Part shown: positions 3,265-20,248 of the stretch, piece after piece
How the letters are laid out: every line of letters starts with the position of its first letter
Position numbering within the stretch: position 1 is the first letter of the stretch
From: a virus
Reading direction: 5' to 3' (one strand)
DNA length: 20,248 nucleotides
Virus record (IMG/VR): IMGVR_UViG_3300028024_000167
Coordinates: 1-20,248 of that record
The notes under the pieces: model-generated
Database searches by the model: none
Told to the model about the DNA's origin: nothing
Seen by the model: only the letters and a program-made list of their open reading frames with translations
Program-made: the position numbers and the translations under genes

Positions 3265-3656
3265 TACTTTTTCCTCGTGAACTTTGCGCCACAGTTGGGG
3301 CATTCAGGAACAAATCGGCTGACTAACCTGACCTTGCAGCGGGAGCACTCGGGATGCTTCGCATGGTGCGCAAGTCGAGCCTCAAACAATGCGACAAGGC
3401 CGTTGCCCTCCCAGTTGGCGAGGCCTGTCATGGGGAGTCCGGCCTCGCGCTGGCTGTCGAGCCCCATCAGATGACGAGCTGCACGCTCATAGCCGGGGGA
3501 TATCGTCAGTGGAGGAACGGAGCGCATCAGCCGCTCGCGAGTCTGTTCATTCGCTCCCTCCAGAGACCGCTGAATCATCCCCGTCTGGAACTCCTGTTCG
3601 AAGATCTCGATGCAAGCCAATCGAATGCCCTCCGTATCTCTCACGACGTCAATCAC
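3264..3656 (-). CDS. Zinc-ribbon protein between tail chaperone and tape measure
   Basis: A 130-residue protein of unknown function. Its C-terminus carries two CxxC pairs (Cys104/107 and Cys119/122), a typical zinc ribbon, followed by a basic tail ending in RKK. The N-terminal 90 residues are mostly helical-looking and resemble nothing I recognise. The start is GTG with only a weak GGGG-type ribosome site. It is in the same frame as the upstream gene, separated by one TAG and three sense codons, so it could be made separately, by stop readthrough, or be the second half of a gene split by a nonsense mutation. Its position just before the tape measure is where the second tail assembly chaperone (lambda T-like) is usually encoded, so that is the most natural role. 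The zinc ribbon is not something I associate with that family. Confidence 0.6.
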   Translation of the reverse strand: MIDVVRDTEGIRLACIEIFEQEFQTGMIQRSLEGANEQTRERLMRSVPPLTISPGYERAARHLMGLDSQREAGLPMTGLANWEGNGLVALFEARLAHHAKHPECSRCKVRLVSRFVPECPNCGAKFTRKK

Positions 3657-3665
3657 TGCAAGCCC

Positions 3666-4403
3666 CTACTCGCCGTCTGCCTGAGTGTCGGGCGAGACAG
3701 AGGAAAAGAGAGGCTCAGCAGCGGCTACTTTGTGGAAGCAATCCATCTTAGAGATGATGGAATCTACTGGCTCTTCCTCGAGCCAATGGCCGTTGAAGCC
3801 ATATCCCTCAACGCTGAGAATCAGCTCGTCATACAGCTCGATCAGGACGCGCTGGCCGCCCTGCCATACCGTCTTGCCTGCACGCGATCCACCGACGATA
3901 AAGGAACGATTGATGCTGCTCGTATAACGTCTCTGCTGCTCGACCGTGGGCGTTTGGAAGTGATGAATAAGGTCGGTCAACTTGACCACGCTAGTCCGTT
4001 CACTATTGGCGGTGTAAAGCGCCTCCAGGCGAACCTCCTCAGTACCCAGCAGCATCGGCTCATCATCGGAGGTCTCAGACTTCCCGACAGAGACCAGGAT
4101 GTTTCCCGCCGTCATGCAGTGGGAGATCGGTACCAGCTTCTGCCAGTTCTCCATCTCCTGCAGCGGCTTGCCTCCGAGGGTGCGATAGCCACTCGCATCG
4201 GTGAGGAGCGCTTGTGCAAGTTTTGTCTTTGCCGCGCTGGTATCGAAGACGTTGGACTGTTTGCCGTCGATCCGTTCGCTGGTGTTGACGATGGCCTCGA
4301 AGTATTTCAGCCACTGCGCCTTGTTCGGAGGCGAGAGCGTCAGGATATACGTGTGACCGCTGACTGTGAACGGAACGATGCGCGATTGTGCGAGATCAAA
4401 CAT
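3666..4403 (-). CDS. Probable tail assembly chaperone
   Basis: A 245-residue protein between the tube-like tail protein and the tape measure, the slot used for lambda G-like chaperones that bind the tape measure during tail assembly. I recognise no domain with certainty, so the call rests on gene order. The first 60 residues ('MFDLAQSRIVPFTVSG', then a segment with 'SPPNKAQWLKYFEAIV') resemble the start of phage proteins that read as a small beta-strand module followed by helix. AAAGGA lies about 8 bases before the ATG. The gene ends in TAG and the next ORF continues in the same frame. No classical slippery heptamer for a -1 frameshift was seen near the 3' end, although that was judged by eye. 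It is larger than many G-like proteins, so another tail-related role is possible. Confidence 0.55.
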   Translation of the reverse strand: MFDLAQSRIVPFTVSGHTYILTLSPPNKAQWLKYFEAIVNTSERIDGKQSNVFDTSAAKTKLAQALLTDASGYRTLGGKPLQEMENWQKLVPISHCMTAGNILVSVGKSETSDDEPMLLGTEEVRLEALYTANSERTSVVKLTDLIHHFQTPTVEQQRRYTSSINRSFIVGGSRAGKTVWQGGQRVLIELYDELILSVEGYGFNGHWLEEEPVDSIISKMDCFHKVAAAEPLFSSVSPDTQADGE

Positions 4404-4541
4404 GGGGATTCCTTTGTGTGAATGGAGTTTTGAGAGTTGTTGCTTTGGCTCAGGGTGAGGAACCCCGTACTGCTTGAGGCCACGTAGGAGGGTGTGGACC
4501 TCTCCACCACGAAGTAGTGCGGTGGATACAACCAGGAGAAG

Positions 4542-4569
4542 CGGACGGCTGCTCTTACACAGCCGTCCG
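4542..4569 (-). promoter_or_regulatory. Perfect stem-loop 5 nt after the tail tube stop codon
   Basis: CGGACGGCTG and CAGCCGTCCG form a perfect 10-bp stem with an 8-base loop. On the transcribed (minus) strand the stem begins five bases after the TAG of the tail tube gene and has no U-run behind it. It may slow ribosomes or stabilise the abundant tube mRNA, or lower transcription of the chaperone. The spacing also fits a stop-codon readthrough stimulator. The rest of the 171-bp gap (4404-4574) has only weak dyads and the chaperone ribosome site. Confidence 0.7.
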
Positions 4570-4574
4570 GAAAG

Positions 4575-5597
4575 CTAAGAGCCCACTGGGAGCTGCAGGA
4601 ATGCCGGATCGGTGCTGACAACAGTCAGCGTCAGAGGTTGAACACCTGCCGCCTGATAACACGTCGTCTCGTCGATCTCGATATTCCAGATGGTCATATC
4701 ACCATCCCAGCCCATCTTGTTTGTCTTGATGTTGGCCGAAGGAACATCGATCTGCAGCGAGGCCGCCGCACCAATCGGAACGGTGATGCGGAGCGCGGTC
4801 TTCGTATTGTTGACGTACCGCGTAAACACATCGTCGGTTGCACTCGCAGCGACTGTGCTCGACAGCGAGAACGTTGGATCGCCCTTACGGATAAATCCAG
4901 CGTTCAGGCCGATGCCGGTGGCGCGATGCTGAATCATCTGGTGATCGACCTTCAACGTCGTCTGCGTGTGGCGGCCGAGGATCGAGAGCGGAGCGCCCAT
5001 GTTGCCCCACAGGAAGTCCGCATCGGAGCCGAGGAAGTAATCTTCGTTCGGGATCGCGGGCAACGGATCAAGCTCTGCGATAGTGTAACGGCCTGTGCCG
5101 ATCAGGTTGTAGTCGGCAGTGATCGAGCCATTCGACGGGATCGTCAGCGTGTAGTCGCTGACCACCATGTCCTGTACCTTATATTTGAGGTCATCGGTGT
5201 CCTCAAGGTAGATGCTGGTTGGTGTCGCCTGTCGCGTGGACTGGTCGAAGTTATAAACATGCGTGAAGGGAGCGGCCTGCCCGGTAGTAACTTCCTTGCC
5301 CATGCAGAACCCGAACAACCAGCACGCAAGCCAAGGAGTCAACTCGGAGCGCAGCCCGGATACCTTGGTCGAATTGCTAGTGATCTGGCCATTGGTGGCA
5401 AACCAAGATTTCTTACCGGAATACTCTTTATCCGACCGGCGATCCTGATCGATGTCGAAGGTTGCCGAACCATCGAATCGCTGCAGGCGCGTGAGGGCTG
5501 CATCGGGAAGAAGACCATTCCATGCGGCCTGTTTGTTTGCGGAGAGCGCTAGGGCGCGGAGAACTTTGCTTTGCGGTTCGAAGTTTACAGGGGGCAT
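4575..5597 (-). CDS. Major tail (tube) protein
   Basis: A 340-residue protein that I read as the siphovirus-type tail tube subunit. It is rich in beta-forming residues. Its opening ('MPPVNFEPQSKVLRAL'), the 'GKEVTTGQAAPFTHVYNF' segment near residue 115 and the repeated Thr/Ser-rich strands resemble tube proteins that begin with an N-terminal arm and pack as rings. It follows the tail-completion and gp37-like genes and precedes the chaperone and tape measure, the standard position. No sheath gene is nearby, so a contractile tail is unlikely. AGAGG lies about 8 bases before the ATG. It ends in TAG, followed after five bases by a strong hairpin, and the frame stays open for 57 codons up to the next gene's ATG. 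Confidence 0.72.
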   Translation of the reverse strand: MPPVNFEPQSKVLRALALSANKQAAWNGLLPDAALTRLQRFDGSATFDIDQDRRSDKEYSGKKSWFATNGQITSNSTKVSGLRSELTPWLACWLFGFCMGKEVTTGQAAPFTHVYNFDQSTRQATPTSIYLEDTDDLKYKVQDMVVSDYTLTIPSNGSITADYNLIGTGRYTIAELDPLPAIPNEDYFLGSDADFLWGNMGAPLSILGRHTQTTLKVDHQMIQHRATGIGLNAGFIRKGDPTFSLSSTVAASATDDVFTRYVNNTKTALRITVPIGAAASLQIDVPSANIKTNKMGWDGDMTIWNIEIDETTCYQAAGVQPLTLTVVSTDPAFLQLPVGS

Positions 5598-5609
5598 CGA
5601 TATCCTCTC

Positions 5610-5984
5610 TTATTTGGCACTATCCGGAACCAGCTCGAAGATCGGCTGCCCGTTGAAGGTTTCTTTCGAGAGCACCTTCCCCCACTCGGCATAACGGAGT
5701 ACGCGGGTGGAGGCGGTGCCTTTGAAGGTGTACTGCATGTGACCGTTAGCAACGTGAATGACACCAGACGGACCGGCGAACTCGCGTCCCGCATCGGTGA
5801 GCTGAACCTGCACCCAATCGGAGATGCGCTTAGTTGGCGCAGCATTGGCCGCTACTGGCGTTTGTGTAACTGCTGTGGCCCTGACGGCCACGGCCTCGAC
5901 CGGAGCGGCTGCCTGAGCCTGTGAAGGCTCAGACTCGGCAGCCGTTGCAGTCTGGGGAGGAGTCATCGTAACTTTATCGCTCAT
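5610..5984 (-). CDS. Small tail-region protein of unknown function
   Basis: A 124-residue protein I do not recognise. The first 50 residues are low complexity, dominated by Ala, Pro, Thr, Val and Gln, and are probably disordered. The remaining 75 form a compact-looking module rich in beta residues with Trp57 and a 'YTFKGTASTRVLRYAEWG' stretch. The ATG overlaps the stop of the gp37-like gene by one base (TGATG) and has GGAGG eight bases upstream. It ends 12 bases before the tube gene and is certainly part of the operon. In Mu the slot after gp37 holds the small gp38, but similarity to it cannot be judged here. A minor connector or tail protein is an inference from position. Confidence 0.7.
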   Translation of the reverse strand: MSDKVTMTPPQTATAAESEPSQAQAAAPVEAVAVRATAVTQTPVAANAAPTKRISDWVQVQLTDAGREFAGPSGVIHVANGHMQYTFKGTASTRVLRYAEWGKVLSKETFNGQPIFELVPDSAK

Positions 5985-6484
5985 CAGTGAACCTCCGGAT
6001 CGCGATTGATACCGCTGAAAGTGGCGATGCCTGAAACCGTGAAGCTCAGCGCGTAGACCTGATCGACAGGTCCGGCAACGTCTAGAGCCTGATTTACGCC
6101 GGTGAGCCCGATTGCTTCCGTGCGGCTGCCGTCCTCAAGCAACAGCCTCGCGCCCGCCAGCTCGTCGGAGAGCGCGCCGACCAGCTCAAGCGTCTGCGAA
6201 CGGAATTTAGCCAGGCTGCGCAGTGACTCGTGACGGCAGAAGGCCGAGAATAGAAGATCGACACCCTGCGTCGTCTTCGTGTTGTCGCGAGCATCGCCAT
6301 AAGCTGCGGAGTTGAAGTGCAGCCGAACGGCCGGGCTCTTCAGGACCAGTTGCCCGTTATCGTCGAAGTCTGTGCCGCCGAGTGTCTGCACATCTACGTT
6401 CTGCCCGTATGACACCTTCAGGCGTCGGGGAAGAAGATCCAGCAGAGCTTTCTCTACTGCAGTAATTTGAACTTTGCCAGCCAT
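5984..6484 (-). CDS. Mu gp37-like (DUF1834-type) protein
   Basis: A 166-residue protein in the place of Mu gp37, a family found between the head-completion and tail genes of Mu-like phages and possibly a tail terminator-like or connector component. Visible features are an N-terminal helix ('AVEKALLDLLPRRL'), an alternating beta pattern in the middle ('AVRLHFNSAAYGDARD'), and a C-terminal strand that ends 'YALSFTVSGIATFSG', similar in layout to small tail-joining proteins. It has a strong ribosome site (GGGAGGAG) and its ATG overlaps the stop of the gpG-like gene (TAATG). It ends in TGA overlapping the next ATG. The family call rests on gene order plus general resemblance. Confidence 0.62.
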   Translation of the reverse strand: MAGKVQITAVEKALLDLLPRRLKVSYGQNVDVQTLGGTDFDDNGQLVLKSPAVRLHFNSAAYGDARDNTKTTQGVDLLFSAFCRHESLRSLAKFRSQTLELVGALSDELAGARLLLEDGSRTEAIGLTGVNQALDVAGPVDQVYALSFTVSGIATFSGINRDPEVH

Positions 6485-7209
6485 TACTCTCCTCCCTGCA
6501 GACCCGCCTGCTGACGCTGACGGCCAATGTATGCAATCGTCAGATCGCGGTGGCGGTCTGGATCTTCAGGCCGGATGACGAGGAAAGGCCGAGGCGGAAT
6601 GTTCTGGTAACGCTCATGCACCTTCACCTCGATGTCCTTGTTGAGCGGTCCCTGATACGAGGCAGTGACTGTCGTCTCGCGGCCTCGCTTGTCGGTGATG
6701 GCCCGCTTGCCTGTCTTCATGGGTCGGGGAACCATGATCGTGCTGCCGTCCGGACGCTGAATCTCTACGCGCTTGTAGTGGATCGCACGCAGACGACGGT
6801 GTGAGCCAACCGTAACGCTACGTCCTGCGATTCTGGCCTGTGGCCCGATAGCGGCTCCGCGCCGATCTGCAGAGCCATACTGGTGGACCGCTGCATAGAC
6901 GAGGTTGGTACCGATGATGACGCCACCAGTGAAAACCGCAAAGGTGACCGAGTTGAGCAGCCGTCCGCTGTCGACCAGGAGCTTGTGACCGAAACCATAC
7001 TTCGCAGGATTACGGGAAATCGTATTGGGTGACAGCGGAGCCCATGAGCCGGCAGGCGAGCCCTGCTCACGAAAGGTGCGTCGCACCGATACCATCTGGC
7101 TTGCCCCGATAATGCGCATCAGTTCGTCGTTTTGGCGAATGCCCAGCTCGTAGCGGCCAAGCGCCAAAACAACGTTATCTGTGCTTACCTGGACAATCTC
7201 CGTTGCCAT
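6484..7209 (-). CDS. Phage virion morphogenesis / tail completion protein (Mu gpG-like)
   Basis: A 241-residue protein related to the Mu gpG and P2 gpS group, which completes the head-tail joining end of the tail. The diagnostic segment is 'LLVDSGRLLNSVTFAVF' near residues 79-95, followed by 'IIGTNLVYAAVHQYGS' near 98-113; this 'SG.L..S' then 'Y...HQ.G' pattern is characteristic of the family. The N-terminal third is helical and the C-terminal third is basic, ending near 'PPRPFLVIRPEDPDRH', also a usual feature. It starts right after the TAG of the previous gene (TAGATG), so the two ORFs share one frame. In Mu the homologue lies just after gpF, whereas here it sits downstream of gp36, a sign of mosaic order. 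Confidence 0.82.
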   Translation of the reverse strand: MATEIVQVSTDNVVLALGRYELGIRQNDELMRIIGASQMVSVRRTFREQGSPAGSWAPLSPNTISRNPAKYGFGHKLLVDSGRLLNSVTFAVFTGGVIIGTNLVYAAVHQYGSADRRGAAIGPQARIAGRSVTVGSHRRLRAIHYKRVEIQRPDGSTIMVPRPMKTGKRAITDKRGRETTVTASYQGPLNKDIEVKVHERYQNIPPRPFLVIRPEDPDRHRDLTIAYIGRQRQQAGLQGGE

Positions 7210-7659
7210 CTACCATCCCCGCAGATTGTGGTCCGAGAAAATCCCGGGCTCTTGTGTTACCACCGGCCCACCCGATGAACCCTGAGCAGGCGCATTTGCT
7301 GGCTGATCGAGCGATGCCTTGCCGGAAGAGATCGCCATCAGGAACTTGATGGCATACTCGTATCGCTGGCCCACCGTCTCGCTTGGTTGCGTCTCACGAC
7401 GCCGCGTGAAGAGCAGAAACATTGCGATGTCGAGAGTAATGCCTTTGACCGTCTCGCTCGCCTGCAGGGGAGTCTTGTACCGCTGGCCGCAAAAGCTATC
7501 GACCCGACCGGAAGCCTCAACCATGATCTGCTGCACAAGAGCGGTGTTTACCTCTCCATGCCCGGGATCGTAATCGTTCTCCGTATCGTCGGTCAGCTCA
7601 ATCAAATCCTTGAGCGTCAACCGCTGCGGTACAAGATCGTCCTGTGTTGCGTAAGCCAT
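7210..7659 (-). CDS. DUF1320 / Mu gp36-like head-completion protein
   Basis: A 149-residue protein of the Mu gp36 family, adaptor-like proteins that attach beneath the portal in the head-tail connector. The N-terminus ('MAYATQDDLVPQRLTLKDLI') matches the family pattern. It is followed by a helix containing 'VDSFCGQRYKTPLQ' near residues 54-67 and 'DIAMFLLFTRRR' near 77-88, both typical of the fold. The C-terminal 30 residues are Pro/Ala/Gly rich and probably flexible. The ATG is three bases after the TAG of the upstream gene, with a GGAAGG stretch at a rather long spacing of about 12 bases. It ends in TAG directly before the next ATG. Confidence 0.85.
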   Translation of the reverse strand: MAYATQDDLVPQRLTLKDLIELTDDTENDYDPGHGEVNTALVQQIMVEASGRVDSFCGQRYKTPLQASETVKGITLDIAMFLLFTRRRETQPSETVGQRYEYAIKFLMAISSGKASLDQPANAPAQGSSGGPVVTQEPGIFSDHNLRGW

Positions 7660-7661
7660 CG

Positions 7662-8078
7662 CTAGTTAGTGCCTTCCGCTGGCTGGGTCTCAGCTGTCTT
7701 AGTAGCAGCTTGTTTCTTTGAACTGACAGGCTTGGTGGCTTCTGCGATCTTCGCGGCAACCAGATGCATGGGGCTTCCCGAAATACGGGCATCCTCGAGA
7801 ATTGCTGCGACATCTGGGTCGAGTGGGGGAAGCTGCTGTCCCTCGGGCGTGATGATTGCATCCTCACGCCTCTTCGCCTCCGCCGCCGCCTGGATGAGCT
7901 GCTCGGAAGTCATCTCGGAGACAGGAACGAAGTAAGGCTCCACAACAGAGAGACCAAGTTCTTCAGCCTGTTCATCAGTAAGCGAAATGAGATCGCCCGG
8001 CTTGTAGGAGAGTTCCTTGCTGAGCCTGATGGGACGCAGAGCGCGATGCGTCGGCGACGTTGCGTTTTTCGGTGCCAT
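7662..8078 (-). CDS. Mu gp35-like small protein of unknown function
   Basis: A 138-residue protein between the major capsid and gp36-like genes, the position of Mu gp35. Near residues 17-45 it has a 'RLSKELSYKPGDLISLTDEQ' segment; short phage proteins with this sort of 'PGD...LT.EQA..L' pattern occur next to the major capsid gene in many Mu-like genomes. The middle is helical and the last 35 residues are Lys/Ala/Thr/Glu rich and probably disordered. AGGAG lies 5 bases before the ATG. The gap between the capsid stop and this gene carries an 11-bp stem-loop. Function is unknown; a role at the capsid surface or connector is only a guess from position. Confidence 0.65.
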   Translation of the reverse strand: MAPKNATSPTHRALRPIRLSKELSYKPGDLISLTDEQAEELGLSVVEPYFVPVSEMTSEQLIQAAAEAKRREDAIITPEGQQLPPLDPDVAAILEDARISGSPMHLVAAKIAEATKPVSSKKQAATKTAETQPAEGTN

Positions 8079-9602: not shown

Positions 9603-9636
9603 TTGCTCGATCCTTCCTGTACTGCGAGATAGTGAA

Positions 9637-9663
9637 ACAGGGGAGGCCCGCCCCCTCCCCTGT
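9637..9663 (-). promoter_or_regulatory. 10-bp perfect stem-loop between scaffold and decoration genes
   Basis: ACAGGGGAGG and CCTCCCCTGT pair perfectly around a seven-base C/G loop. On the transcribed strand it is followed by TTTC, giving a weak terminator or attenuator. A second 6-bp hairpin (CTGCGA/TCGCAG, 9669-9687) sits just upstream of it. Placed here it could set the ratio of protease/scaffold to decoration and capsid messages or mark a processing site. Confidence 0.7.
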
Positions 9664-9711
9664 GGGCTCTGCGAGCTTATGTCGCAGACGGACATGCCGG
9701 GTCTGGTATGT

Positions 9712-10365
9712 CTAAACCGCGCCGGTTGACGCGCCCCCGTAGGTGGCTGAGCTTTTGCCCTCGGCGTTGAGCTGCTTCAGCGCGTCGTTGTAAGGGATGT
9801 TCTTTTCCTTCGAACGAGTGACAACCTGTTCGTGGAAGAGAGCGGAACCCGGATCGACAGGAGTGCCATTGCCGCTGGGCGTTGACTTCGGCGTCTCGAC
9901 CGTGCCACCGCTGGCGAAGAGTGCGCCTTCAGGAACAATCTTCCCGAGGCCGTGAAGCACATTCGCAAGCATCTGCGCGGCATCCACCTTCTGCTGCTTG
10001 TCACCTTCGCCGAAGGTAATCTCAATCGGGTGCTCAGCCGTAAGCGCTGTGAAGAGTGCGGGAACACCCATCTCGTCGAACGCGGGCAGCCAATGCTTCT
10101 TCTCTTTCAGGTCGAAGATCAGTGTGGCAGCGCGGGCATTGCCGTTGGTCGCCGAGACCTGCGTCTGAAACTCGCTAAACCGTGCCTCGGCTGCAACACG
10201 CGCCTCGCGCTCTGCCTTCAGCTCTTCGGTGAACTTCGCCGTTGCACGCTCAATCGCCGCATCGATCTGAACCTGAGTCAACCCCCCGGTGGGAGCGGGA
10301 TTACTCGATCCAAATGTCTCTGCGAAGAAGGCCTTGATGGCATTCAAAATACTCTTTTCGTCCAT
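9712..10365 (-). CDS. Internal in-frame start giving a scaffold protein
   Basis: The last 217 residues of the protease ORF can be made alone from an ATG at 10365 (codon 150), which has GGGAG five bases upstream, a stronger ribosome site than that of the full gene. The product begins MDEKSILNAIKAFF and contains a charged Ala/Glu/Arg helix near residues 45-75 of the short form, fitting an assembly scaffold. Mu I/Z and lambda C/Nu3 use the same nested arrangement. The nested start is inferred from the ribosome site. Confidence 0.6.
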   Translation of the reverse strand: MDEKSILNAIKAFFAETFGSSNPAPTGGLTQVQIDAAIERATAKFTEELKAEREARVAAEARFSEFQTQVSATNGNARAATLIFDLKEKKHWLPAFDEMGVPALFTALTAEHPIEITFGEGDKQQKVDAAQMLANVLHGLGKIVPEGALFASGGTVETPKSTPSGNGTPVDPGSALFHEQVVTRSKEKNIPYNDALKQLNAEGKSSATYGGASTGAV

Positions 10366-10812
10366 AACATCTCCCTTTGGGTTTTCCGAGAACTCGATCT
10401 CGCTGAAACGGTCATCGCCGAACTTCGCATCGCGCAGCCCTTTGACGGCGGGCAGCATCGCGCCAAGATAGCCGATGTGGCGCAGCTCCAGTGGCATCTT
10501 GAGCGAGCCATCAGGATGCTGCTTGAACGCCACGCTACGCTTTTTGTAGCGGCCAGCCTTCACAGCAGTGTCGAACGCAGGATCGACTTCACCAGCAAGC
10601 GCCTGCACAAGATCGCCCTGCATGCGTAGAGCTTTTGTCCAGGCATAGGCGGGGCCGTCATTCGACGGATGGCCCAGAACAAAAGGAACCTCATCTTTGG
10701 AGGCATCGTAGTTAGCGCACATCTGTGCGAGATTGGCGATAGAGTAGTTGCCCTTGTCGCCGTAATCGCCTGCACGAAATACGTCCAGCCATTGACCGTT
10801 GAGTGTGCTCAC
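9712..10812 (-). CDS. Mu gpI-like prohead protease with scaffold domain
   Basis: A 366-residue protein of the Mu gpI group, which matures the prohead and removes the scaffold. The N-terminal 130 residues hold the expected pattern: 'GNYSIANLAQMCANYD' near 21-36, 'VPFVLGHPSNDGPAYAW' near 42-58 with the conserved GHP, 'GRYKKRSVAFKQHPDG' near 87-102, and 'LRHIGYLGAMLPAVKGL' near 109-125. Residues from about 150 form the scaffold part, with a charged helix and a low-complexity linker near 300-320. The start is GTG, immediately after an in-frame TGA CCT, and has no clear ribosome site, whereas the internal start at 10365 has a good one. It follows a 121-bp gap that contains a strong hairpin. Confidence 0.87.
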   Translation of the reverse strand: MSTLNGQWLDVFRAGDYGDKGNYSIANLAQMCANYDASKDEVPFVLGHPSNDGPAYAWTKALRMQGDLVQALAGEVDPAFDTAVKAGRYKKRSVAFKQHPDGSLKMPLELRHIGYLGAMLPAVKGLRDAKFGDDRFSEIEFSENPKGDVMDEKSILNAIKAFFAETFGSSNPAPTGGLTQVQIDAAIERATAKFTEELKAEREARVAAEARFSEFQTQVSATNGNARAATLIFDLKEKKHWLPAFDEMGVPALFTALTAEHPIEITFGEGDKQQKVDAAQMLANVLHGLGKIVPEGALFASGGTVETPKSTPSGNGTPVDPGSALFHEQVVTRSKEKNIPYNDALKQLNAEGKSSATYGGASTGAV

Positions 10813-10933: not shown

Positions 10934-11725
10934 TTATGCGGCGAGAAGTGAAGTATACCCAGTTTGCGGTACAAGCTCCATAACTCGAATAGGCAATCTC
11001 AACATACCATCTTCCGATGCGTTCTTATCGATCTGAAGCGCTTCCGCTTCCGTGATCGACACAACAGAGCAACGGCATCCGAATCCCGATGGCGGATAGA
11101 TCTTCATCCACACACGATCTATCGCACGCGCTACGAAGCCGTCCAGATCGTCATGCTCAGGCCGCACGCGATTATCTCCCACGGTCCAGTATTGCCAGAA
11201 CGGTAGCGCTTCCAGGACAGGGCCATCCGTCATCTGCTCATAGCGGCCCACCGAGTAAGCCTTCTGCGCATTCGACGAGAACACGGTATCAATCGTCGGG
11301 CCAGCCAGCCGCGCTACGCCAGCCGCATCGGTCATTGCATCAACAGCACTGCGGAACTCATCCTTTGTGCCGCCCTGCAGCACAACCTCAGCCAGCTCGT
11401 CGCGGATCTTCTGCAGAAGACGCTGGTCGGTGAGGCCGGTGACTGTGATGGCATCGGCCTTGTACTGCTTGCTCAGGCCGTCGAAGACATCCCGCGTTAC
11501 AGGCGTCAGGCTGCGAAGATAATCGAGCGCACCAGTCGGTGGAAGCTCAAAGCTCGTATAGATCGCGCTCTCATCGGGCAACGCATCTGCAAAGAGATGC
11601 GAACCCGACATGAGCGGCAGAATCTTGCCCGTCTTCTGTCTCGCTGCTTTCAGCACGGTGAGACGCCCAAGCAGGTTGAATCCTGCCTGATAGTCTGCGA
11701 ATCGATCTGAGAGGCTTCGTTGCAT
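10934..11725 (-). CDS. Phage head morphogenesis protein (Mu gpF-like)
   Basis: A 263-residue protein of the Mu gpF / SPP1 gp7 family, minor head proteins that bind the portal and take part in head assembly. The family signature is clear at residues 176-219: FWQYWTVGDNRVRPEH, a short insert, then PPSGFGCRC, with the conserved Arg188, His191 and the Cys217/Cys219 pair that read as a metal-binding or structural site. The N-terminal 170 residues are mostly helical, as is usual. The ATG overlaps the portal stop by one base (TGATG), with GGAG ten bases upstream, so translation is probably coupled to the portal. It ends in TAA before a 121-bp gap. Confidence 0.9.
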   Translation of the reverse strand: MQRSLSDRFADYQAGFNLLGRLTVLKAARQKTGKILPLMSGSHLFADALPDESAIYTSFELPPTGALDYLRSLTPVTRDVFDGLSKQYKADAITVTGLTDQRLLQKIRDELAEVVLQGGTKDEFRSAVDAMTDAAGVARLAGPTIDTVFSSNAQKAYSVGRYEQMTDGPVLEALPFWQYWTVGDNRVRPEHDDLDGFVARAIDRVWMKIYPPSGFGCRCSVVSITEAEALQIDKNASEDGMLRLPIRVMELVPQTGYTSLLAA

Positions 11726-13197
11726 CAGGCCGAAGCTCCATGACTGTGCAAAGCCGCTGCCGTTACCTGTTGCAGACGCTGCTTGGCGTCAGCAAGAGAT
11801 TCGTCACGGAACTGATTCATCAATGTGTCGAAGGCCGCGAACTCTTCCTTCACCTGTTTGTCGCGGCCATCACTGAACTGCGGCTGACTTGCCAAAGCCG
11901 CTGGTGATGAGGCTCCCACTTGAGGGACGAGAATGGTATCCCCCTCTTCCGGCTGCGGGATTCCATACTTCGTGTGCATGTACTTCGAGGTGATCGGCAC
12001 GCCCATTTCCTGTGCGCCCTTATCGATATTCATGCGCTCGACGAGATCCTCTTCGTTCTCGACCTCATAACCAAGCGTGGGCATCGGGCAGTCCGGCCCG
12101 AAGTTCCACAGCACAAGATTGCGCACCAAGCTATCGTTCAGTACGCGATTGAGCCGCCGCGTGAACTCGACGGAACGCTGATCTTTCGTCTCCGCATGAA
12201 CGTTGCCGAGAGCTTGTGTGCCCTTACCTTCAGAGCTTCCGTGACTTGTCAGCGTCGACCCAACAATACGCCGGTAAATCTTCTCCTCCAGCTTGTCGTG
12301 CAGCTTCGCATAGACGTCCGGGTTCTGTGTCCTCGCTCCAGTCAGCAGCTCCTGCACGACCTCGAAGTTCGAGGGCACCGCAATCGCTACCGAGTTGATG
12401 ATCGCCTCCGCAGAAGCGAGAGCGTCCCTCTTCTCCTTATCCGCAGCCCCTTCGTTGTACTTCACGACCGCCGTTCCCGGTCCCTTCTCTGCAAGCCTCA
12501 TCCAAAGTCGCAGCAGATTACGCTTGAACCAACTAGGCCAGTAGATGTTCCGCATGAGAGGACGGCCCATCCGATTCCCCGCACGCATGCGGCTGCTGTA
12601 GACGATGAACTTCTGCTCAGGGACTGGAACGCCATCGTCGCCGATGTAATTACTCATCCTGAGCGGCCCGATCTGCGGGTAGTTGACCGGAGCAAACCGG
12701 AAAAGCTCCTGTGGGCAATCGCGGATGTCCAAGAGCGATACCTGTCCGGAGCTGACATCGAAGATCATCTCTTGCACTGAGTACCCGTAGAAGGGAGCGT
12801 CGAGAATCGAATTGACCGCGTTGTCCCAACACTTCAGCGAGTCGATCTGTGCCTTGATGAAGTTGGCGGCGTCGATTGCCTTCGCGGAGTCATCCTTCGG
12901 CAGTACCTGCCACGCACGCTTCGTCACGGAGAGCTTCATCTCATCGACGGCGTCGCCGACATCCTCGTCTTTCTCCTCCAGCTCGCGGTAGTAGAGGATC
13001 GCGTCGAAGGAGTTAGTAATCATCTTCTGCCAAACCGCAGTAGGATCGGCTGTCCCAGCGAAGGCCGAACCCAGACGATACGTCGATCCTTCGTTGAGAA
13101 AGAGGATCTCGGGCGAGAGTAAGGCTCCCTTCTCCGGAGGAGCCGGATTGGGATCGTTGGGGGGAGGAGTGAGATCTGCCGTAGTGTTTCCGATCAT
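11725..13197 (-). CDS. Portal protein (DUF935, Mu gp29-like)
   Basis: A 490-residue portal of the Mu gp29 family, the dodecameric ring through which DNA enters and leaves the head. Diagnostic stretches include 'DAPFYGYSVQEMIFD' near residues 113-127, 'GRPLMRNIYWPSWFKRN' near 213-229, 'TLTSHGSSEGKGTQALGN' near 318-335, and 'YMHTKYGIPQPEEGD' near 428-442. Length is normal for the family, and the gene looks intact. The first 30 residues are Pro/Asn rich and probably flexible. Its ATG overlaps the terminase remnant's stop by four bases (ATGA), with an AGGT ribosome site. Translation was therefore originally coupled to the terminase gene, which is now broken. Confidence 0.93.
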   Translation of the reverse strand: MIGNTTADLTPPPNDPNPAPPEKGALLSPEILFLNEGSTYRLGSAFAGTADPTAVWQKMITNSFDAILYYRELEEKDEDVGDAVDEMKLSVTKRAWQVLPKDDSAKAIDAANFIKAQIDSLKCWDNAVNSILDAPFYGYSVQEMIFDVSSGQVSLLDIRDCPQELFRFAPVNYPQIGPLRMSNYIGDDGVPVPEQKFIVYSSRMRAGNRMGRPLMRNIYWPSWFKRNLLRLWMRLAEKGPGTAVVKYNEGAADKEKRDALASAEAIINSVAIAVPSNFEVVQELLTGARTQNPDVYAKLHDKLEEKIYRRIVGSTLTSHGSSEGKGTQALGNVHAETKDQRSVEFTRRLNRVLNDSLVRNLVLWNFGPDCPMPTLGYEVENEEDLVERMNIDKGAQEMGVPITSKYMHTKYGIPQPEEGDTILVPQVGASSPAALASQPQFSDGRDKQVKEEFAAFDTLMNQFRDESLADAKQRLQQVTAAALHSHGASA

Positions 13198-13973
13198 TGA
13201 TAACCTGCCGACTGCGAGTGTGTGGATTGCGTCTGTGAAGTTGTGGTCTCGGTCGATAGCGACGAGCCAGCAGATGCGAGATCGCAGAGAGCTGCAGCCC
13301 AGAAGCGGTCCGAGTGAACAAAGAGCTTCTTTTTCTTCGCACCCGAAACGGCGCTCTCGACCTCGATACGTGGTGCATCGAAAGTGACGCCAGAAGCGGT
13401 GGCTTCGCGCTTGATTGCGCTGAACTCCAGAACGGTCTGCGGATCGTAGGGGATACGCCAGAGGCTCTTCTGCATGTTCTTTTTCAGGCGCATCGCCAGA
13501 TCAACCTTCATACGGACACCCGCATCATTTGTGCCGCCAAACGACACACCCATCACGCGACCAGGATTCGATTCGTTCAGATAATCGAATAGGCCACTAC
13601 CGATGCCGGTCTTATCGATTGCTGTGCGACGTGTCATATTCACCCACGGGTGCAGCAGTTCATGCTGCTTGGGGAATGAGACGGAGTGCAGTGGATACAC
13701 CATACGGGTCCATCGCACATCACCGATCAGCTCTGCCAGCCAGAGCACCGTAGCATCGCGATCTCTCGCAACGTCGATGCCACTGAAGAGCGGATTGCGG
13801 CTGACATAACCATTTGGCCAATCAACTGTAGCTCCCGCATCCTGACACGCAAGGATAAGTTCCTTGTCCAGCCATGCACCCACGGCCTTCAGGAAGAAGC
13901 AACGGAACTCCTGATTGAAGGTATCGTCGTCCTTGATACCCTGACGCATCTCTTCGATGTTGATCGGGCAACC
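13194..13973 (-). pseudogene. Large terminase subunit remnant, nuclease part only (Mu gp28-like)
   Basis: About 260 codons of a Mu gp28-like packaging terminase remain. The frame begins abruptly near 'GCPINIEEMRQGIKDDDTF', normally a mid-protein segment, and the full protein should be about twice as long. The Walker A and B ATPase half is missing. The RNase H-like nuclease keeps its probable acidic residues, numbered from the Met at 13949: Asp59 in 'SGIDVARDRD', Asp112 in 'AIDKTGIGSGLF', and Asp214 in 'HSDRFWAAALCDLA'. Upstream of 13973 the frame turns into unrelated sequence and meets a TAG at 14006-14004. The only in-frame ATG (13949) has no usable ribosome site at proper spacing. It ends in TGA overlapping the portal start. 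Most likely a deletion or recombination product. Confidence 0.85.
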
Positions 13974-14025
13974 GCGTCTACTGGGCGCTGAAGCGCATGC
14001 AGCCTATCTCTCAGGAGCGGAAGCA

Positions 14026-14283
14026 ATGAATAAGTGGGACAAGCGAGACAATCTCCAGCGAGATCAGATGCTCATGCCCTGGAGTCCAGGGCGCACCATC
14101 TCGACGGCCCGCGCCGCCGAGCTGCTTGGCGTCTGCCAGACGACGATCCGCAACATGCTCGATGACGGAACGCTCAAGGGGTACAAGATTCGTCCCCTCT
14201 GCAAGAACAGTCCGTATCGTGTTGTGCGTGACTCGGTGGAGAAGCACATCGGACACCTGATTGATGAATACTCGCTGGAATAG
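14026..14283 (+). CDS. Small winged-helix / excisionase-type DNA-binding protein
   Basis: An 85-residue protein with one recognisable module: 'TISTARAAELLGVCQTTIRN', then 'MLDDGTLKGYKIRP' and 'SPYRVVRDSVEKHI', covering about residues 22-75. This is the helix-turn-helix plus wing pattern of the excisionase/MerR-like superfamily. Such proteins bind DNA as phage regulators, recombination directionality factors or repressors; which one cannot be said. The start at 14026 has AGGAG eight bases upstream, better than the in-frame ATG at 13957, which would lie inside the terminase remnant. It runs opposite to the structural operon and in the direction of the fibre-like gene downstream. It ends in TAG, and the frame then stays open for 36 codons. 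Confidence 0.75.
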   Translation: MNKWDKRDNLQRDQMLMPWSPGRTISTARAAELLGVCQTTIRNMLDDGTLKGYKIRPLCKNSPYRVVRDSVEKHIGHLIDEYSLE

Positions 14284-14313: not shown

Positions 14314-14394
14314 ATGCTCCGCATCGGAGGTATTGAATCCGATCTCTCCGAAGTTACGTTGGTGAGTATCATTTGCGAGGTACGTCCTAAGTGA
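14314..14394 (+). CDS. Possible 26-aa leader ORF overlapping the fibre gene
   Basis: A short ORF (MLRIGGIESDLSEVTLVSII and six more residues) whose TGA overlaps the GTG of the next gene (GTGA), an arrangement often used for translational coupling. GTGGAG lies directly against its ATG, an unfavourable distance. It is in frame with the DNA-binding gene upstream across a TAG, so it may instead be the tail of that gene. It could be chance. Confidence 0.25.
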   Translation: MLRIGGIESDLSEVTLVSIICEVRPK

Positions 14395-17024
14395 CCAATA
14401 TCAGCGGAACAAATGTCTGTGATGCTTCAGGCAACAAGATCAAGTCAGGCACCATCACCTTTACTCCGACTTTAGATGGAAAGAAGTTAGCTTCATTCAG
14501 GCCAGATGGCGGCGGTGCGGTCACCGCCACAACAATTGCCGCAAAGATCACCAATGGAGCATTCTCGCTTTCACTCTGTGACACCGTGAAGACAGAGCCC
14601 AAGAACATCAGTTATCACGTACAGGTCTTCGTCGTTGAAGGTGGCCCCAACGTTCTCGGGCCGGGTTATACGTCCTATCAGCCAACAGGCTCTGCTGATA
14701 ACTTTGACAATTACATTCCACGGCTGACAGACGGCGTAGCAATTCAGACCGGACCTCAGGGAGATTCGGCCTATCAGGTCGCTGTAGAAGGCGGGTTTTC
14801 CGGTACGCAGGCTCAGTGGATTGCTTCTTTGAAGGGCGCTCCAGGCGATGTGAGCAAGCCGCTGCTCGGCAGTGGCGTTGGAACTGGTGTCTCCGCGCAG
14901 CTGCCTACCTCACGCAATCTTTTCAATAAGGCGACGATTACGTCTGGCCTAGCTCCCAGCGCAACAACAGGAGCACCGCTGTCGGTTGGCAGCGCAAACT
15001 ATTACATGTCTGACTTCCTCTTCGTCGGAGGTCTCACCCAGATCATCTCGAATAGCATGATGGCCGATCAGTCGAGCTATTCATGCTGTTTCTATGCAAT
15101 CGATGGAAGTTTTATATCTTCTCTGTCGGCTCCCGTTTCTGCCAACACTCCCATCGCGGTTCCTGCGGGAGCTGCGCTCTTTCGCTTTTACTCGGCAGTT
15201 GCGGCAGATTCCGTAAATACAGCTCCCGTTCCAGTAGGTCAGATCATGGTTGTCGCAGGCAACGTTTTGCCGTCGACCTACACCGCATTCGGCTACTATC
15301 CGCCCGAAGTCGTAGACAACAAGGTCGCCCAGGTCAGCTCTCTGGTCGGAGCCAGCGTTGGAGCCGGTGTCTCTGCGCAGCTCCCCACGGGACGCAACAT
15401 CTTCAACAAAGCCACAATCGTTCCGAACCAAGCTCCCAGCGCGGCCACAGGCGCTCCGTTGGCAACCAGCGGATCGAATTACTACATGTCGGACTTCCTC
15501 TATGTTGGGGGACTGACACAGATCATCTCGAACAGCTTGATGGCTGCTCAGTCGGGCTTTTCGTGCTGTTTCTACGGGATCGACAAAGCCTTTATCTCCT
15601 CTCTGTCCGCTCCCGTAGCGGCCAACACTCCCATCCCCGTACCTGCAGGAGCGGCATTCTTCCGCTTCTACTCGGCAATCGTGGCCGATGCTGTGAACGC
15701 GGCTCCGGTTCCAGTGGGGCAGATTATGGTAGTGGCGGGCAGCGTGGTTCCGTCGACCTATACAGCGTTCGGGTACTACCCTCCAGAGGTCGTAGACAGC
15801 AAGCTTCTCAAGATCGGCACTGATACGAAGAACAGTATTCAGGGTTACTTCGCGCAATACGCAAATCTTCTCGACCTCAATCGCGTGCAGGTCAACGCCG
15901 CAATTCACTATGCGAATGTGAACGCCATTCCCGCTGTCACGGCAGGGAACAATGGATTCAACCTCTACGGTCCGATTCCTGTCATTGCGGGCGGCACCGT
16001 CACTGCAAACAAGCCCCTGCACACGATGGCTGGGTATGGACCAGCGTTCATGGATGTCGATGGGAACTTCCTGCCGATGGGAGCGGACCTGAAAGCATTC
16101 TGGCAGGCACAAGTCGGAATCCCAGCCAACACCACGCTCAATGTTCCTGCGAATGCGGCGTACTACTGGCCTTATTTCAATATCAACGGCAGTGGTACCG
16201 GAGACGTCGGCAAGATCGACAATATCAACACGGCGATGGTCGTGCAGGGAGCTACGTTCCCGTCGAGCTATCGTCCGTTTGTCGGTCAGGGTTTTGATCT
16301 GGTGGCAAGGAATGCTGCTCAGCCGCTCTCAGGCGTCAAGGTGGGATGGCTGGGTGACAGTATCTCCTATGGTCAGGGCAGCAACCTCAAGCTCTCAACG
16401 CTGGTCGCCGCGATCACCGGCATGCAGGATACGTACTCCCTATCATGGCCGGGGCGAAAGATGAACAATGCGCTGGATAACACCGGCAACACGGGTGTGA
16501 CAGCTCCAACGCAGGCGATCTTTCAGAACCTTGACGTGGTGGTCATCTGGCTGGGAACAAACCTCAGCGGAACGTCGACCGGCAATATCGGAACTGCAAG
16601 CGATCCGGTGAGCGTCGGGACCGCGAACGCAAATGGAGTTACGTTCCCGTCCGCTGACACATATTGCTCCCAGCTCAAGGGTGTCATCGAGCAGCTCCTG
16701 ACCTGGAATCAGAACCTCCGCATCGTCAAGGCCTCGCCGTATCAGTCCAACAACCAGAACGCGGAGACCGGCAGTCCTGAAGGGGTCGGTAATCTTCCGT
16801 CCCCGGCTGGCTTGGCACTGTTGAAACAGGTCCACGATATGGATGTGGCCGTAGCCGGACTCCAGTACGGCATCCCTGTGCTGGACTGCTATAGCGAGAT
16901 GGGGCTTTGCAACGCCAATAACCCGACTCTCACGGTCGACGGAACCCATCCGACCGCATGGTTCCAGCAGAACCGTATTGCGCCATTCTTTGCACGCAAG
17001 ATAGAGAGATATTCCATCAAGTAA
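14391..17024 (+). CDS. Tail-fibre-like protein with C-terminal SGNH/GDSL hydrolase
   Basis: An 877-residue modular protein, probably a receptor-binding fibre or secreted enzyme that removes acyl groups from surface polysaccharide. Residues 1-115 resemble the N-terminal beta module of phage minor tail proteins. Residues about 122-152 hold the fibre motif 'GPQGDSAYQVAVEGGFSGT' followed by QWIASLKG. Residues 158-317 and 318-477 are near-identical tandem domains beginning near a 'NLFNKATI' segment and ending 'FGYYPPEVVD'; 478-640 is a divergent third copy. Residues 648-877 are an SGNH esterase: GDS with Ser657, Gly688, 'GTN' with Asn724, and 'DGTHP' with Asp850 and His853. Start is GTG with GAGG ten bases upstream. 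No signal peptide is visible. It lies opposite to the tail operon, not with the tail genes, so it may be a separately regulated or relocated module. Confidence 0.82.
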   Translation: MTNISGTNVCDASGNKIKSGTITFTPTLDGKKLASFRPDGGGAVTATTIAAKITNGAFSLSLCDTVKTEPKNISYHVQVFVVEGGPNVLGPGYTSYQPTGSADNFDNYIPRLTDGVAIQTGPQGDSAYQVAVEGGFSGTQAQWIASLKGAPGDVSKPLLGSGVGTGVSAQLPTSRNLFNKATITSGLAPSATTGAPLSVGSANYYMSDFLFVGGLTQIISNSMMADQSSYSCCFYAIDGSFISSLSAPVSANTPIAVPAGAALFRFYSAVAADSVNTAPVPVGQIMVVAGNVLPSTYTAFGYYPPEVVDNKVAQVSSLVGASVGAGVSAQLPTGRNIFNKATIVPNQAPSAATGAPLATSGSNYYMSDFLYVGGLTQIISNSLMAAQSGFSCCFYGIDKAFISSLSAPVAANTPIPVPAGAAFFRFYSAIVADAVNAAPVPVGQIMVVAGSVVPSTYTAFGYYPPEVVDSKLLKIGTDTKNSIQGYFAQYANLLDLNRVQVNAAIHYANVNAIPAVTAGNNGFNLYGPIPVIAGGTVTANKPLHTMAGYGPAFMDVDGNFLPMGADLKAFWQAQVGIPANTTLNVPANAAYYWPYFNINGSGTGDVGKIDNINTAMVVQGATFPSSYRPFVGQGFDLVARNAAQPLSGVKVGWLGDSISYGQGSNLKLSTLVAAITGMQDTYSLSWPGRKMNNALDNTGNTGVTAPTQAIFQNLDVVVIWLGTNLSGTSTGNIGTASDPVSVGTANANGVTFPSADTYCSQLKGVIEQLLTWNQNLRIVKASPYQSNNQNAETGSPEGVGNLPSPAGLALLKQVHDMDVAVAGLQYGIPVLDCYSEMGLCNANNPTLTVDGTHPTAWFQQNRIAPFFARKIERYSIK
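14862..15341 (+). repeat. 480-bp tandem repeat, copy 1
   Basis: First of two in-frame 480-bp (160-residue) units in the fibre-like gene. Both begin around a 'GVSAQLPT' peptide and end before the next 'GVSAQLPT'. The protein copies agree at most positions while the DNA differs at many third positions, so the duplication is not recent or has been under selection. Confidence 0.88.
15342..15821 (+). repeat. 480-bp tandem repeat, copy 2
   Basis: Second 160-residue unit, in register with copy 1. The Cys-Cys pair ('SCCFY') and the 'PSTYTAFGYYPPEVVD' ending are kept. A third, strongly diverged unit follows (roughly 15822-16320, e.g. 'FPSSYRPFVGQGFD' in place of the ending), so the array may have had three or more units. 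Confidence 0.88.
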
Positions 17025-17062: not shown

Positions 17063-17117
17063 ATGCAACAAGAGCATGGACTCGTTTCTTTGACAATTCA
17101 GACTGAGCAAGTCCCAG

Positions 17118-17355
17118 TTCCGTTGGATTGATCGTTTTCGGATGACTTCCGTTGGATTTTTCGGTGGCAAATTGGCCAATTTCTTGGAGAAAATGCCCAA
17201 TTCTCAATCTCGCCTGATGCTCGTCGAGGCAATTTCCTCTTGTTCCGTTGGATTTCTCATTCTCTGGAACCAAGAATCAATGACTTAGAGCGTCAATCCA
17301 ACGGAAGTACCTGCGGGTGCTGTCATCTAATTCTGGTAACGGCGGTCCAACGGAA
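17118..17355. repeat. Five copies of TTCCGTTGGAT, three direct and two inverted
   Basis: Direct copies are at 17118-17128, 17147-17157 and 17243-17253. Inverted copies are at 17296-17306 and, with one base changed at the end, 17345-17355. Flanking bases extend the pairing: copies 1 and 4 share 14 bases, copies 2 and 5 share 15 (ATGACTTCCGTTGGA), and copies 3 and 4 form a 12-bp dyad around 40 bases. Candidate roles are binding sites for a regulator or recombinase, or a degraded mobile element. Confidence 0.8.
17169..17182. repeat. 14-bp perfect palindrome AAATTGGCCAATTT
   Basis: A fully symmetric 14-mer inside the repeat cluster, between the second and third 11-bp motif copies. Size and symmetry fit a dimeric repressor operator, though no promoter elements next to it were recognised. 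Confidence 0.6.
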
Positions 17356-17453
17356 GTCATTCCCGATGTGCGAATCGACCAATAAATACGCGCTCATCCC
17401 GCGATTTCCCGCCGTCCCCCGCCGTATCCCGCTGCTGTCATCTAATTCTGGTA
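17318..17453 (+). repeat. 21-bp direct repeat flanking 94 bp
   Basis: Identical 21-mers at 17318-17338 and 17433-17453 (core GCTGTCATCTAATTCTGGTA). The 94-bp insert contains the fifth 11-bp motif copy and runs of CCGCCGT/TCCCGC. It may be a duplicated end of a small element, a duplication scar, or an attachment-like site. Confidence 0.75.
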
Positions 17454-17469
17454 CTCACAGAAATACAGG

Positions 17470-17495
17470 GATTCTTCGGCTTCGCCTCAGAATGA
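17470..17495. repeat. REP-like hairpin
   Basis: GATTCTTCGGCTTCGCCTCA followed by GAATGA forms an imperfect hairpin: ATTCT with AGAAT outside, GGC with GCC inside, around TTC. It looks like repeated palindromic elements scattered between genes in acidobacteria and related genomes; a match to a named family was not checked. Confidence 0.45.
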
Positions 17496-17743
17496 CGGGG
17501 TGATTGGGTGGAGAATGATGGGGAATGAATGATGGAGAAGTGGCTGGCGATGGCGAGTGGATGGTGATAGCGAGTGGATCGAGGGCGAAGATTGGCGGTG
17601 GAAATCTCCTGTTGATTTAGGGACGGCTGCCGATGACGGGAGAGGGTAAGGAGGCGTCGAAGAGAGTCATGAGAAGAGTTTTGTCGATGGGTATGGCTGT
17701 CCTGGGCTCGGGTTGCCCGGTCTTTTGGGGTTGATTTGGATGT

Positions 17744-17803
17744 TTGCGACTTATGCAACAGTTGCTGCATCCTATATCTGATAATTTGATAGAAGGGCAC
17801 TCA
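17744..17803 (+). promoter_or_regulatory. Lon leader with ribosome site and possible promoter
   Basis: GAAGGG ends six bases before the lon ATG. Upstream lies an AT-richer stretch with candidate -10 boxes (TATATC at 17773 and GATAAT at 17780), but no -35 at proper spacing could be chosen. GCAAC-A-GTTGC (17755-17765) is a small dyad. No heat-shock element such as CIRCE or HAIR was recognised. Confidence 0.3.
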
Positions 17804-20248
17804 ATGGCAAACGACTTCGTAAGTGTAATTAAACCGACAGCTAAAAACTCCGAAGGGAGCGAGGGCGCGAACGGCGGGCGGCCGGTTCCGGTTCTGCCAG
17901 TACGCGATACGGTTCTCTTTCCGCATGCGGTGCTTCCTTTAACGGTGGGCCGCGAAAGCTCTATCCAACTGATTCAATCTCTGGGCGAGGAGAAGTCGAT
18001 TCTCGTGGTGGCCCAGCGAGACGCGCGGCAGGATACTCCCCAGGCGGCCGACCTTTATGCCGTGGGCACGCGTGCGACTGTTCATAAGGTCGTGAAGATG
18101 CCCAACCAGAGCCTCTTTGTGTTTACAGAGGGCAATGAGCGTGTGCACCTGGGCGAGTTCACGCAGCTGCAGCCGTTCATGACGGCGGAGTTCGAGGTAA
18201 TCGCTGAGACGATACCGGAGAAGACGCCGGAGTTCGAGGCTCTCGAGCGTAACGTGGTGAGCCAGTTCCAGCAGATCGTGACCTCGTCGCCGACTTTGTC
18301 GGACGACCTACAGACGATTGCGATCAACATCGAGGAACCGGGACGCCTGGCGGACTTTATCGCCTCGTCGCTGCCGTTCCTGACGACGACCGACAAGCAG
18401 GAGCTGTTGGAGACGCCGGACGTGACCAAGCGTCTGGAGCGGATCAACCAGCACCTCGCCAAGGAAATCGAGGTCCAGCAGCTTCGGAACAAGATTCAGT
18501 CCGAGGTGCAGGATTCGGTGCAGCAGTCGCAGAGGGACTACTACCTGCGCGAGCAGCTGAAGGCGATTCAGAAGGAACTTGGCGATGTGGACGAGAGCCA
18601 GAAGGACATCGCTGAGCTGAAGGAGAAGATTGAAGCTGCCGGAATGCCGGATGAGGTGAAGAAGGACGCGCTGAAGGAGCTCGCCCGTCTGAGCCGGATG
18701 AACGCGATGGCTGCGGACTACAGCCTGACACGGAACTACGTGGAGTGGCTGGCGGTTCTGCCGTGGTCGAAGAGCTCGGCGACCGAGGTGGACATCAAGA
18801 AGGCGAAGGAGATTCTGGATACGGACCACTATGGCCTGAAGAAGGTGAAGGACCGCATCCTGGACTACCTCTCGGTGCGTCGCCTGAAGCCGGATATGAA
18901 GGGACCGATTCTTTGCTTCGTCGGGCCTCCGGGCGTGGGTAAGACCTCGCTTGGGCGGTCGATTGCGAAGGCTCTGGGACGCAAGTTCTCGCGCATCTCG
19001 CTGGGCGGCATGCACGACGAGGCGGAGATCCGCGGACATCGGAGAACGTACATCGGCGCGCTGCCTGGGCAGATCATTCAACACCTGAAGAGGGTGGAGG
19101 TGAACGACCCGGTCTTCATGCTGGATGAGATCGACAAGCTGGGCCGCGATTTTCGTGGCGATCCGGCGAGCGCGCTGCTGGAGACGCTGGACCCGGAACA
19201 GAACAACACGTTCCGCGACAACTATCTGGATCAGCCGTTCGACCTGAGCAAGGTGCTGTTTATCTGCACCGCCAACCAGCTCGATACGATTCCGGGACCG
19301 TTGCTGGACCGCATGGAGATCATCGAATTGACGGGTTATACCGAAGAGGAGAAGGTCAACATCGCGGAGCGGTATCTGGTTCCCCGGCAGCTGAAGGAGA
19401 ACGGTGTGGATGCTGCGATGATCGACTTCCCGACGACGAGTGTGGCGCTGGTAGCGCGGCACTATACGCGTGAGGCCGGTGTGCGCAGGCTGGAGCAGCA
19501 GATTGGAACGGTGTGCCGCAAGGTGGCTCGCAGGATCGCAGAGGGCGCGACGGAGAAGATCACGATTACGCCTGAGGTGATTCACGAGTTTCTGGGCGGG
19601 ATCAAGGTCCGCGTGGATACGGAGATCGCCGAGCGGACGAAGCGTGCGGGCGTGGCGGTTGGCCTGGCGTGGACTCCGGCAGGAGGAGACGTGCTCTTCA
19701 TCGAGGCGAACAAGATGAAGGGTAAGGGCGGATTCACGATCACCGGTCAGATCGGCGACGTGATGAAGGAGAGCATGCAGGCCGCGTTGACCTGGGTGCG
19801 CTCGAACGCAGGGAAGTTCGGCCTCGAGCAGGACTTCACGAAGGACACGGATATTCATATCCACGTTCCGGCGGGAGCGATCCCGAAGGACGGTCCTTCG
19901 GCGGGCATCACGATGGCGACGGCTTTGGTGAGTCTGTTGACGGACACACCGGTGCATCCGCTGACGGCGATGACCGGCGAGATCACGCTGAGCGGCAACG
20001 TGCTGCCGGTGGGAGGCATCAAGGAGAAGTTCCTTGCGGCCAAGCGCGCGGGAGTGCGGGATGTGATTCTTCCCCTGGAGTGCAAGACCCAGGTGGACGA
20101 AGACCTGACGCCGGATCAGATCGACAACGTGAAGATCCACTACGCTACGCGGATCGAAGAGGTACTGTCGATAGCGCTGCCGAAGACGGTGCAGGAAGAG
20201 GCAGAGGACGAGGCGGTTCGCGAAGAGGTGATTCACGCTTCGGCGTAA
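17804..20248 (+). CDS. lon: ATP-dependent Lon protease
   Basis: An 814-residue cytoplasmic AAA+ protease that unfolds and degrades damaged and regulatory proteins. The N-terminal substrate-binding domain starts near residue 27 ('[20 protein letters not shown]'), followed by a long coiled coil near 215-300. The ATPase has Walker A GPPGVGKT (374-381) and Walker B FMLDEID with Asp441/Glu442. The protease domain has the catalytic Ser699 in GPSAG and the partner Lys742 in 'KEKFLAAK', with the same 43-residue spacing as in E. coli Lon. The length is normal and the protein ends in an acidic Glu/Asp-rich tail. I chose the ATG at 17804 for its GAAGGG ribosome site; the in-frame start at 17744 adds 20 residues. 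It is intact, shows no phage features, and marks host chromosome at the prophage boundary. Confidence 0.97.

Follow-up and report, generated by a model that had tools for sequence, protein, structure and literature searches.

A Mu-like prophage upstream of lon in an Edaphobacter-like host, with half a terminase probably left by a single direct deletion

Genes and features of the locus

The window analysed here, 20,248 bases without Ns, is the whole of the IMG/VR record IMGVR_UViG_3300028024_000167, a single metagenomic record whose ends sit on gene ends, bases 1-3 being the stop codon of the probable tape-measure gene and the last three that of lon (Table 1). Judged by the amino acid identity of its lon product, the host is Edaphobacter-like, i.e. 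a soil Acidobacterium of the phylum Acidobacteriota, and nucleotide homology between the window and Edaphobacter aggregans starts at 17725. The virus-host boundary as given by the record is off by about 2.8 kb, because the record was cut at gene ends and takes in the host lon gene. The phage is inserted approximately 300 bp upstream of lon (window 17459-17804), near enough to influence its promoter. A 641-base query containing the REP-like repeat directly outside the phage gave matches in 42 of the 62 genomes from the host genus, and nearly all of the listed matches fell on this repeat, often with many copies per genome.

The frame on the minus strand from 14003 to 13194 reads, after a stop codon, as AACASAPSRRGCPINIEEMRQG and in a longer readout as AACASAPSRRGCPINIEEMRQGIKDDDTFNQEF. 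In Pfam its protein hits Terminase_6C (E 3.5e-8) and in PHROG the families of the terminase large subunit; by its sequence, it is the nuclease half of a Mu-gp28-type large terminase. Three acidic residues kept in the nuclease domain (D73, D126 and D228, numbered in the translated stretch) are likely to be the catalytic ones. No ATPase part and no Walker motifs were found in the remnant, and the whole record is without a Terminase_6N match and thus offers no intact terminase elsewhere. DNA homology to many relatives halts exactly at 13973/13974, and the stop point is the same in every relative compared. The original prediction of a terminase cut down to its C-terminal nuclease is thereby confirmed.

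The Mu-type head gene set (Mu portal, F, Gp36) follows the terminase in order, and across the 12,759 coding bases of the 14 late genes no stop codon was found. The head and tail genes downstream are intact, as had been proposed, as far as they are visible, most tail and baseplate genes lying beyond the record end at the tape-measure stop. The portal used as a query retrieved no loci from genome contigs or viral contigs.

On the other side of the remnant, a helix-turn-helix (HTH) gene and a tail-fibre-like gene are encoded on the plus strand. A 108-aa HTH frame starting at 13957 was rejected as an artefact of the junction described below, and a search with the HTH protein against phage records gave no matches. 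Within the fibre protein, a unit of approximately 150 residues is duplicated in tandem, the two copies being identical at 117 of 150 residues.

Table 1. Features of the window, with coordinates, strand and basis of assignment
Feature	Position	Strand	Basis
Neck and tail genes (Gp36, tail completion, tail tube, unassigned tail genes, probable tape measure), intact	1..8078	-	Pfam, PHROG, relatives
Major capsid protein, intact	8148-9158	-	Pfam, PHROG, relatives
Protein without assigned function, upstream of capsid gene, intact	9198-9695	-	Pfam, PHROG, relatives
Head maturation protease, intact	9712..10812	-	PHROG, relatives
Minor head protein (Mu F type), intact	10934..11725	-	Pfam, PHROG, relatives
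Portal (Mu portal type), intact	11725..13197	-	Pfam, PHROG, relatives
Terminase large subunit remnant, C-terminal RNase H-like nuclease domain	13194..13973	-	Translation, Pfam, PHROG
Probable deletion junction, 5 bp common to gp16-like and terminase sides	13969..13973		GGTTG on minus strand
C-terminal remnant of gp16-like early gene, GNRVYWALKRMQPISQERKQ followed by stop	13969..14029	+	31/31 bp to G441
HTH (HTH_17/excisionase-like) protein, 85 aa	14026..14283	+	Pfam, PHROG, relatives
Tail-fibre-like protein, C-terminal SGNH/GDSL hydrolase domain	14391..17024	+	Pfam, PHROG, relatives
Repeat cluster near left end, 5 copies of TTCCGTTGGA in both orientations	17117..17357		Repeat comparison
Inner copy of 21-bp end-type repeat, TGCTGTCATCTAATTCTGGTA	17318..17338		Alignment of ends
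Phage left terminus, outer end-type repeat and terminal ...ACTCACA	17433..17459		Aligns with G386, G335 and G122 ends
Host dispersed REP-like repeat, directly outside phage	17460..17498		Search in host-genus genomes
Host lon protease gene	17744..20248	+	94% aa identity to E. aggregans

The junction and its counterparts in related phages

The terminase frame had been described as turning into unrelated sequence and a TAG. The TAG is real, whereas the sequence is not unrelated, as on the plus strand it is the C-terminus of a gene from the same group of phages, for which we use the working name gp16-like, Pfam and PHROGs having given the protein no name. The remnant comprises the last approximately 20 codons, overlaps the next start as ATGA and matches the C-terminus of an early gene in relatives (EANRVWWALKGMAQARG in G122 and DANKVRWALKGMLQAAG in G050). 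In the relative G441, both sides of the join were found: the gp16-like side is identical at 31 of 31 bases (window 13999-13969), the terminase side shares 74% identity across 721 bases (window 13973-13253), and the two matches overlap by 5 bases, GGTTG on the minus strand of the window. G348 likewise matches both sides, and the missing length is approximately 17.4 kb in G441 coordinates and 16.7 kb in those of G348. That one relative matches both sides of the join points to one direct deletion of about 17 kb, and the recent deletion that the original prediction had named as one possibility is supported by the finding of both parental junction sequences 16-17 kb apart in undeleted relatives.

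In the relatives that show the left arm, the gp16-like gene and the terminase are on opposite strands, with the gp16-like gene 16-19 kb upstream, and this also holds for the fibre gene where it is visible. The order in G386 is fibre-HTH-gp16-...-MuB-MuA-...-Ter-portal, and the same order from HTH-gp16 through portal was found in G348 and G122. The protein adjoining the gp16-like gene matches the HTH protein of the window in G122, G368, G348 and G386; in G050 (in the order fibre, gp16, MuB/MuA, terminase) the protein between fibre and gp16 has diverged and gives no significant match to it. Where relatives retain the counterpart of the lost stretch, it carries genes for a transposase of the Mu type and a transposition ATPase as well as for a transcriptional regulator, an endolysin and a Gp27-like protein. 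The DDE transposase (MuA) and the ATPase (MuB) are not among the genes of the window and, in the relatives whose left arm is seen, lie inside the stretch missing here. The notion that the motor alone was lost is therefore not tenable, given that the transposase and the transposition ATPase, the early genes, the endolysin and Gp27 disappeared along with it.

We consider it very probable that the record represents the left part of a Mu-like prophage, inserted upstream of lon in an Edaphobacter-like host, the middle of which was lost by a single direct deletion of approximately 17 kb. One end of the deletion would lie about 20 codons before the end of the gp16-like early gene, the other around codon 240 of the gene for the terminase large subunit, and illegitimate recombination of the end-joining or slippage type, to which the sharing of only 5 bp by the two ends points, may have joined them. 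Such an event would have taken out the transposase and the transposition ATPase together with early and regulatory genes, the endolysin (lysis) gene, Gp27 and the terminase ATPase, and would have brought the left terminus, the fibre gene and the HTH gene next to the head and tail genes. One direct deletion explains the half terminase, the stop codon and the seemingly unrelated sequence, and also why the neighbouring genes run in the opposite direction. Since transposase, regulators, lysis and packaging ATPase are all gone, the product is presumably a defective prophage incapable of transposing or packaging by itself. Its late genes are probably silent, because the genes upstream of the terminase, presumably with promoter and activator, are gone as well. 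The deletion may be recent, with which the stop-free late genes are compatible, and it presumably took place in the cell.

Alternative origins of the truncated terminase

An intact prophage whose two parts were joined as a chimera during library preparation, amplification or assembly is an improbable but not negligible alternative. It would agree with the provenance of the junction from one metagenomic record: a search of IMG/VR with the exact 25-base junction pattern found no other record among those open to it, from which near-identical records may be missing, and a match in G069 was rejected, being a 28-bp match within an unrelated gene. The short microhomology at the join would fit as well, as amplification chimeras also show short microhomology at their joins. 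However, Ns are absent and the 5-bp overlap is below the k-mer length of any assembler and gives a de Bruijn assembler far too little sequence to misjoin on, which argues against a software error; furthermore, order and orientation are as expected after a simple deletion within a single phage, and the relatives matched on one side of the join are also those matched on the other. As to whether the deletion arose in a cell or in the sequencing library, a real molecule is therefore favoured.

The terminases of relatives bear on the remaining alternatives. Strong matches with open frames of 458-545 aa were found in eight genomes when 200 genomes of the host family were searched; the seven of these that were read over their whole length encode ATPase and nuclease parts in a single continuous protein, as does the IMG/VR relative L001, and homology to the window begins near residue 220-250 of these proteins. 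Twenty matches were obtained from the host order (397 genomes searched), comprising 18 substantial ones with open frames of 403-556 aa, none of which carries the break of the window, a frame-shifted tail of a substantial one (G435) and a weak partial match (G087). The shortest frame, that of G348, results from a frameshift in the ATPase part. Among 80 IMG/VR relatives, the frame stays open for 180 aa or more ahead of the homologous start in 76, which hence have a full-length terminase, and the other four run off record ends; truncated terminases numbered zero. In G348, the closest relative (L117-L119 joined and reverse-complemented), the stretch 23000-24873 holds the broken terminase frame and, between terminase and portal, a second, diverged copy of some 45 ATPase residues.

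A domesticated particle, resembling a gene transfer agent or a tailocin and kept by the host without a packaging motor, is very unlikely. It had been suggested as one option that the particle serves something other than packaging its own genome, and a conserved break together with strong purifying selection had been named as support for this; the break was found in no other record searched, and close relatives have a terminase of full length in the same position. The 12.8 kb of stop-free late genes and the purifying selection seen in codon-position differences from G348 might speak for such a role, yet this selection signal spans the entire history of the phages and not the branch after the deletion alone. 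The comparison with G348 was restricted to codon-position differences in place of dN/dS, as third positions differ by 51-63% and are near saturation. The nonsense changes that would have indicated decay of the structural genes did not appear, but given that 3.2% of random changes give stops, zero stops leave room for neutral change of as much as about 0.7% after the loss without any selection, and the integrity of the late genes is thus no evidence for domestication. Moreover, the loss extended to the endolysin, the regulators and the genes that lead into the late operon, and a gene transfer agent requires its own packaging motor, with which a motor-less particle is at odds. The element is in all probability an ordinary broken prophage rather than a particle retained for some new function.

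It is similarly doubtful that the element is a mini-Mu satellite that keeps its left terminus (perhaps both termini), fibre, head and tail genes and relies on intact relatives, with end sites that match its own, for transposition and packaging in trans; if this were true, a deleted prophage would be spreading as a satellite. A naturally split terminase, with the nuclease half as a separate gene and the ATPase encoded elsewhere, is hardly credible: the 285-position profile of PHROG 5909, a terminase family, does cover the nuclease half, but all assessable near IMG/VR relatives encode one continuous protein, the remnant starts at an internal ATG without a spaced Shine-Dalgarno sequence, and the sequence upstream is a different, truncated gene.

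Under the favoured single deletion, the striking phage without a motor reduces to one ordinary event, and relatives allow both of its ends to be traced to the base. A truncated terminase together with stop-free late genes should not be taken as grounds for domestication.

Left terminus and relation to known phages

The break had been placed at the prophage edge, whereas the phage runs approximately 3.5 kb past it to an intact left terminus at 17459. On the minus strand, this terminus reads 5'-TGTGAGTACC and aligns with TGTGAATACAG in G386 and with TGTGAGTACAG in both G335 and G122, while the bordering DNA differs among the aligned left ends of the window and these three phages. A start with 5'-TG and repeated end sites are of the Mu type; the right end lies outside the record. 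As a by-product, the left terminus and the gene order of the left arm are defined for a group of transposable phages in Acidobacteriota.

Mu-like prophages of the Terriglobales (G348, G122, G050, G386 and G441, the latter being IMG/VR 3300047494_000274) share with the window the late order Ter-portal-F-protease-capsid-Gp36-tube-TMP, left-arm genes on the opposite strand and, where seen (G386, G335, G122), a matching left-terminus sequence. Unlike the window, they retain the 16-17 kb from the gp16-like gene to the terminase, MuA/MuB-type genes and a long terminase, which in G348 carries a frameshift. With phage Mu and the Pseudomonas phage B3 group, the window has in common the Mu-type portal, the F protein, Gp36, the C-terminal domain of the terminase (33% identical between B3 and the remnant) and a terminus beginning with TG; in contrast to them, it is distant in sequence, its fibre/SGNH gene adjoins the terminus, and it is deleted. 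Prophages, some of them Mu-like, that are inactive in bacterial genomes have been described for Neisseria gonorrhoeae (PMC1931599) and in a review of 'grounded' prophages (PMC6379469). From the defective prophages of these two sources, the window differs by its host phylum, Acidobacteriota, and by the precise junction resolved here.

The TTCCGTTGGA cluster near the left end probably consists of protein-binding sites. Phages of the group (the window and the left ends in L137, L136 and L099) have left-end clusters of 5-6 variable bases followed by TTGGAT in both orientations. The cluster core differs from phage to phage, being TTCCG in the window, GGCAC in G122, GTCGC in G386 and TTCGC in G335, and these clusters could be operator or immunity-type sites that differ by lineage.
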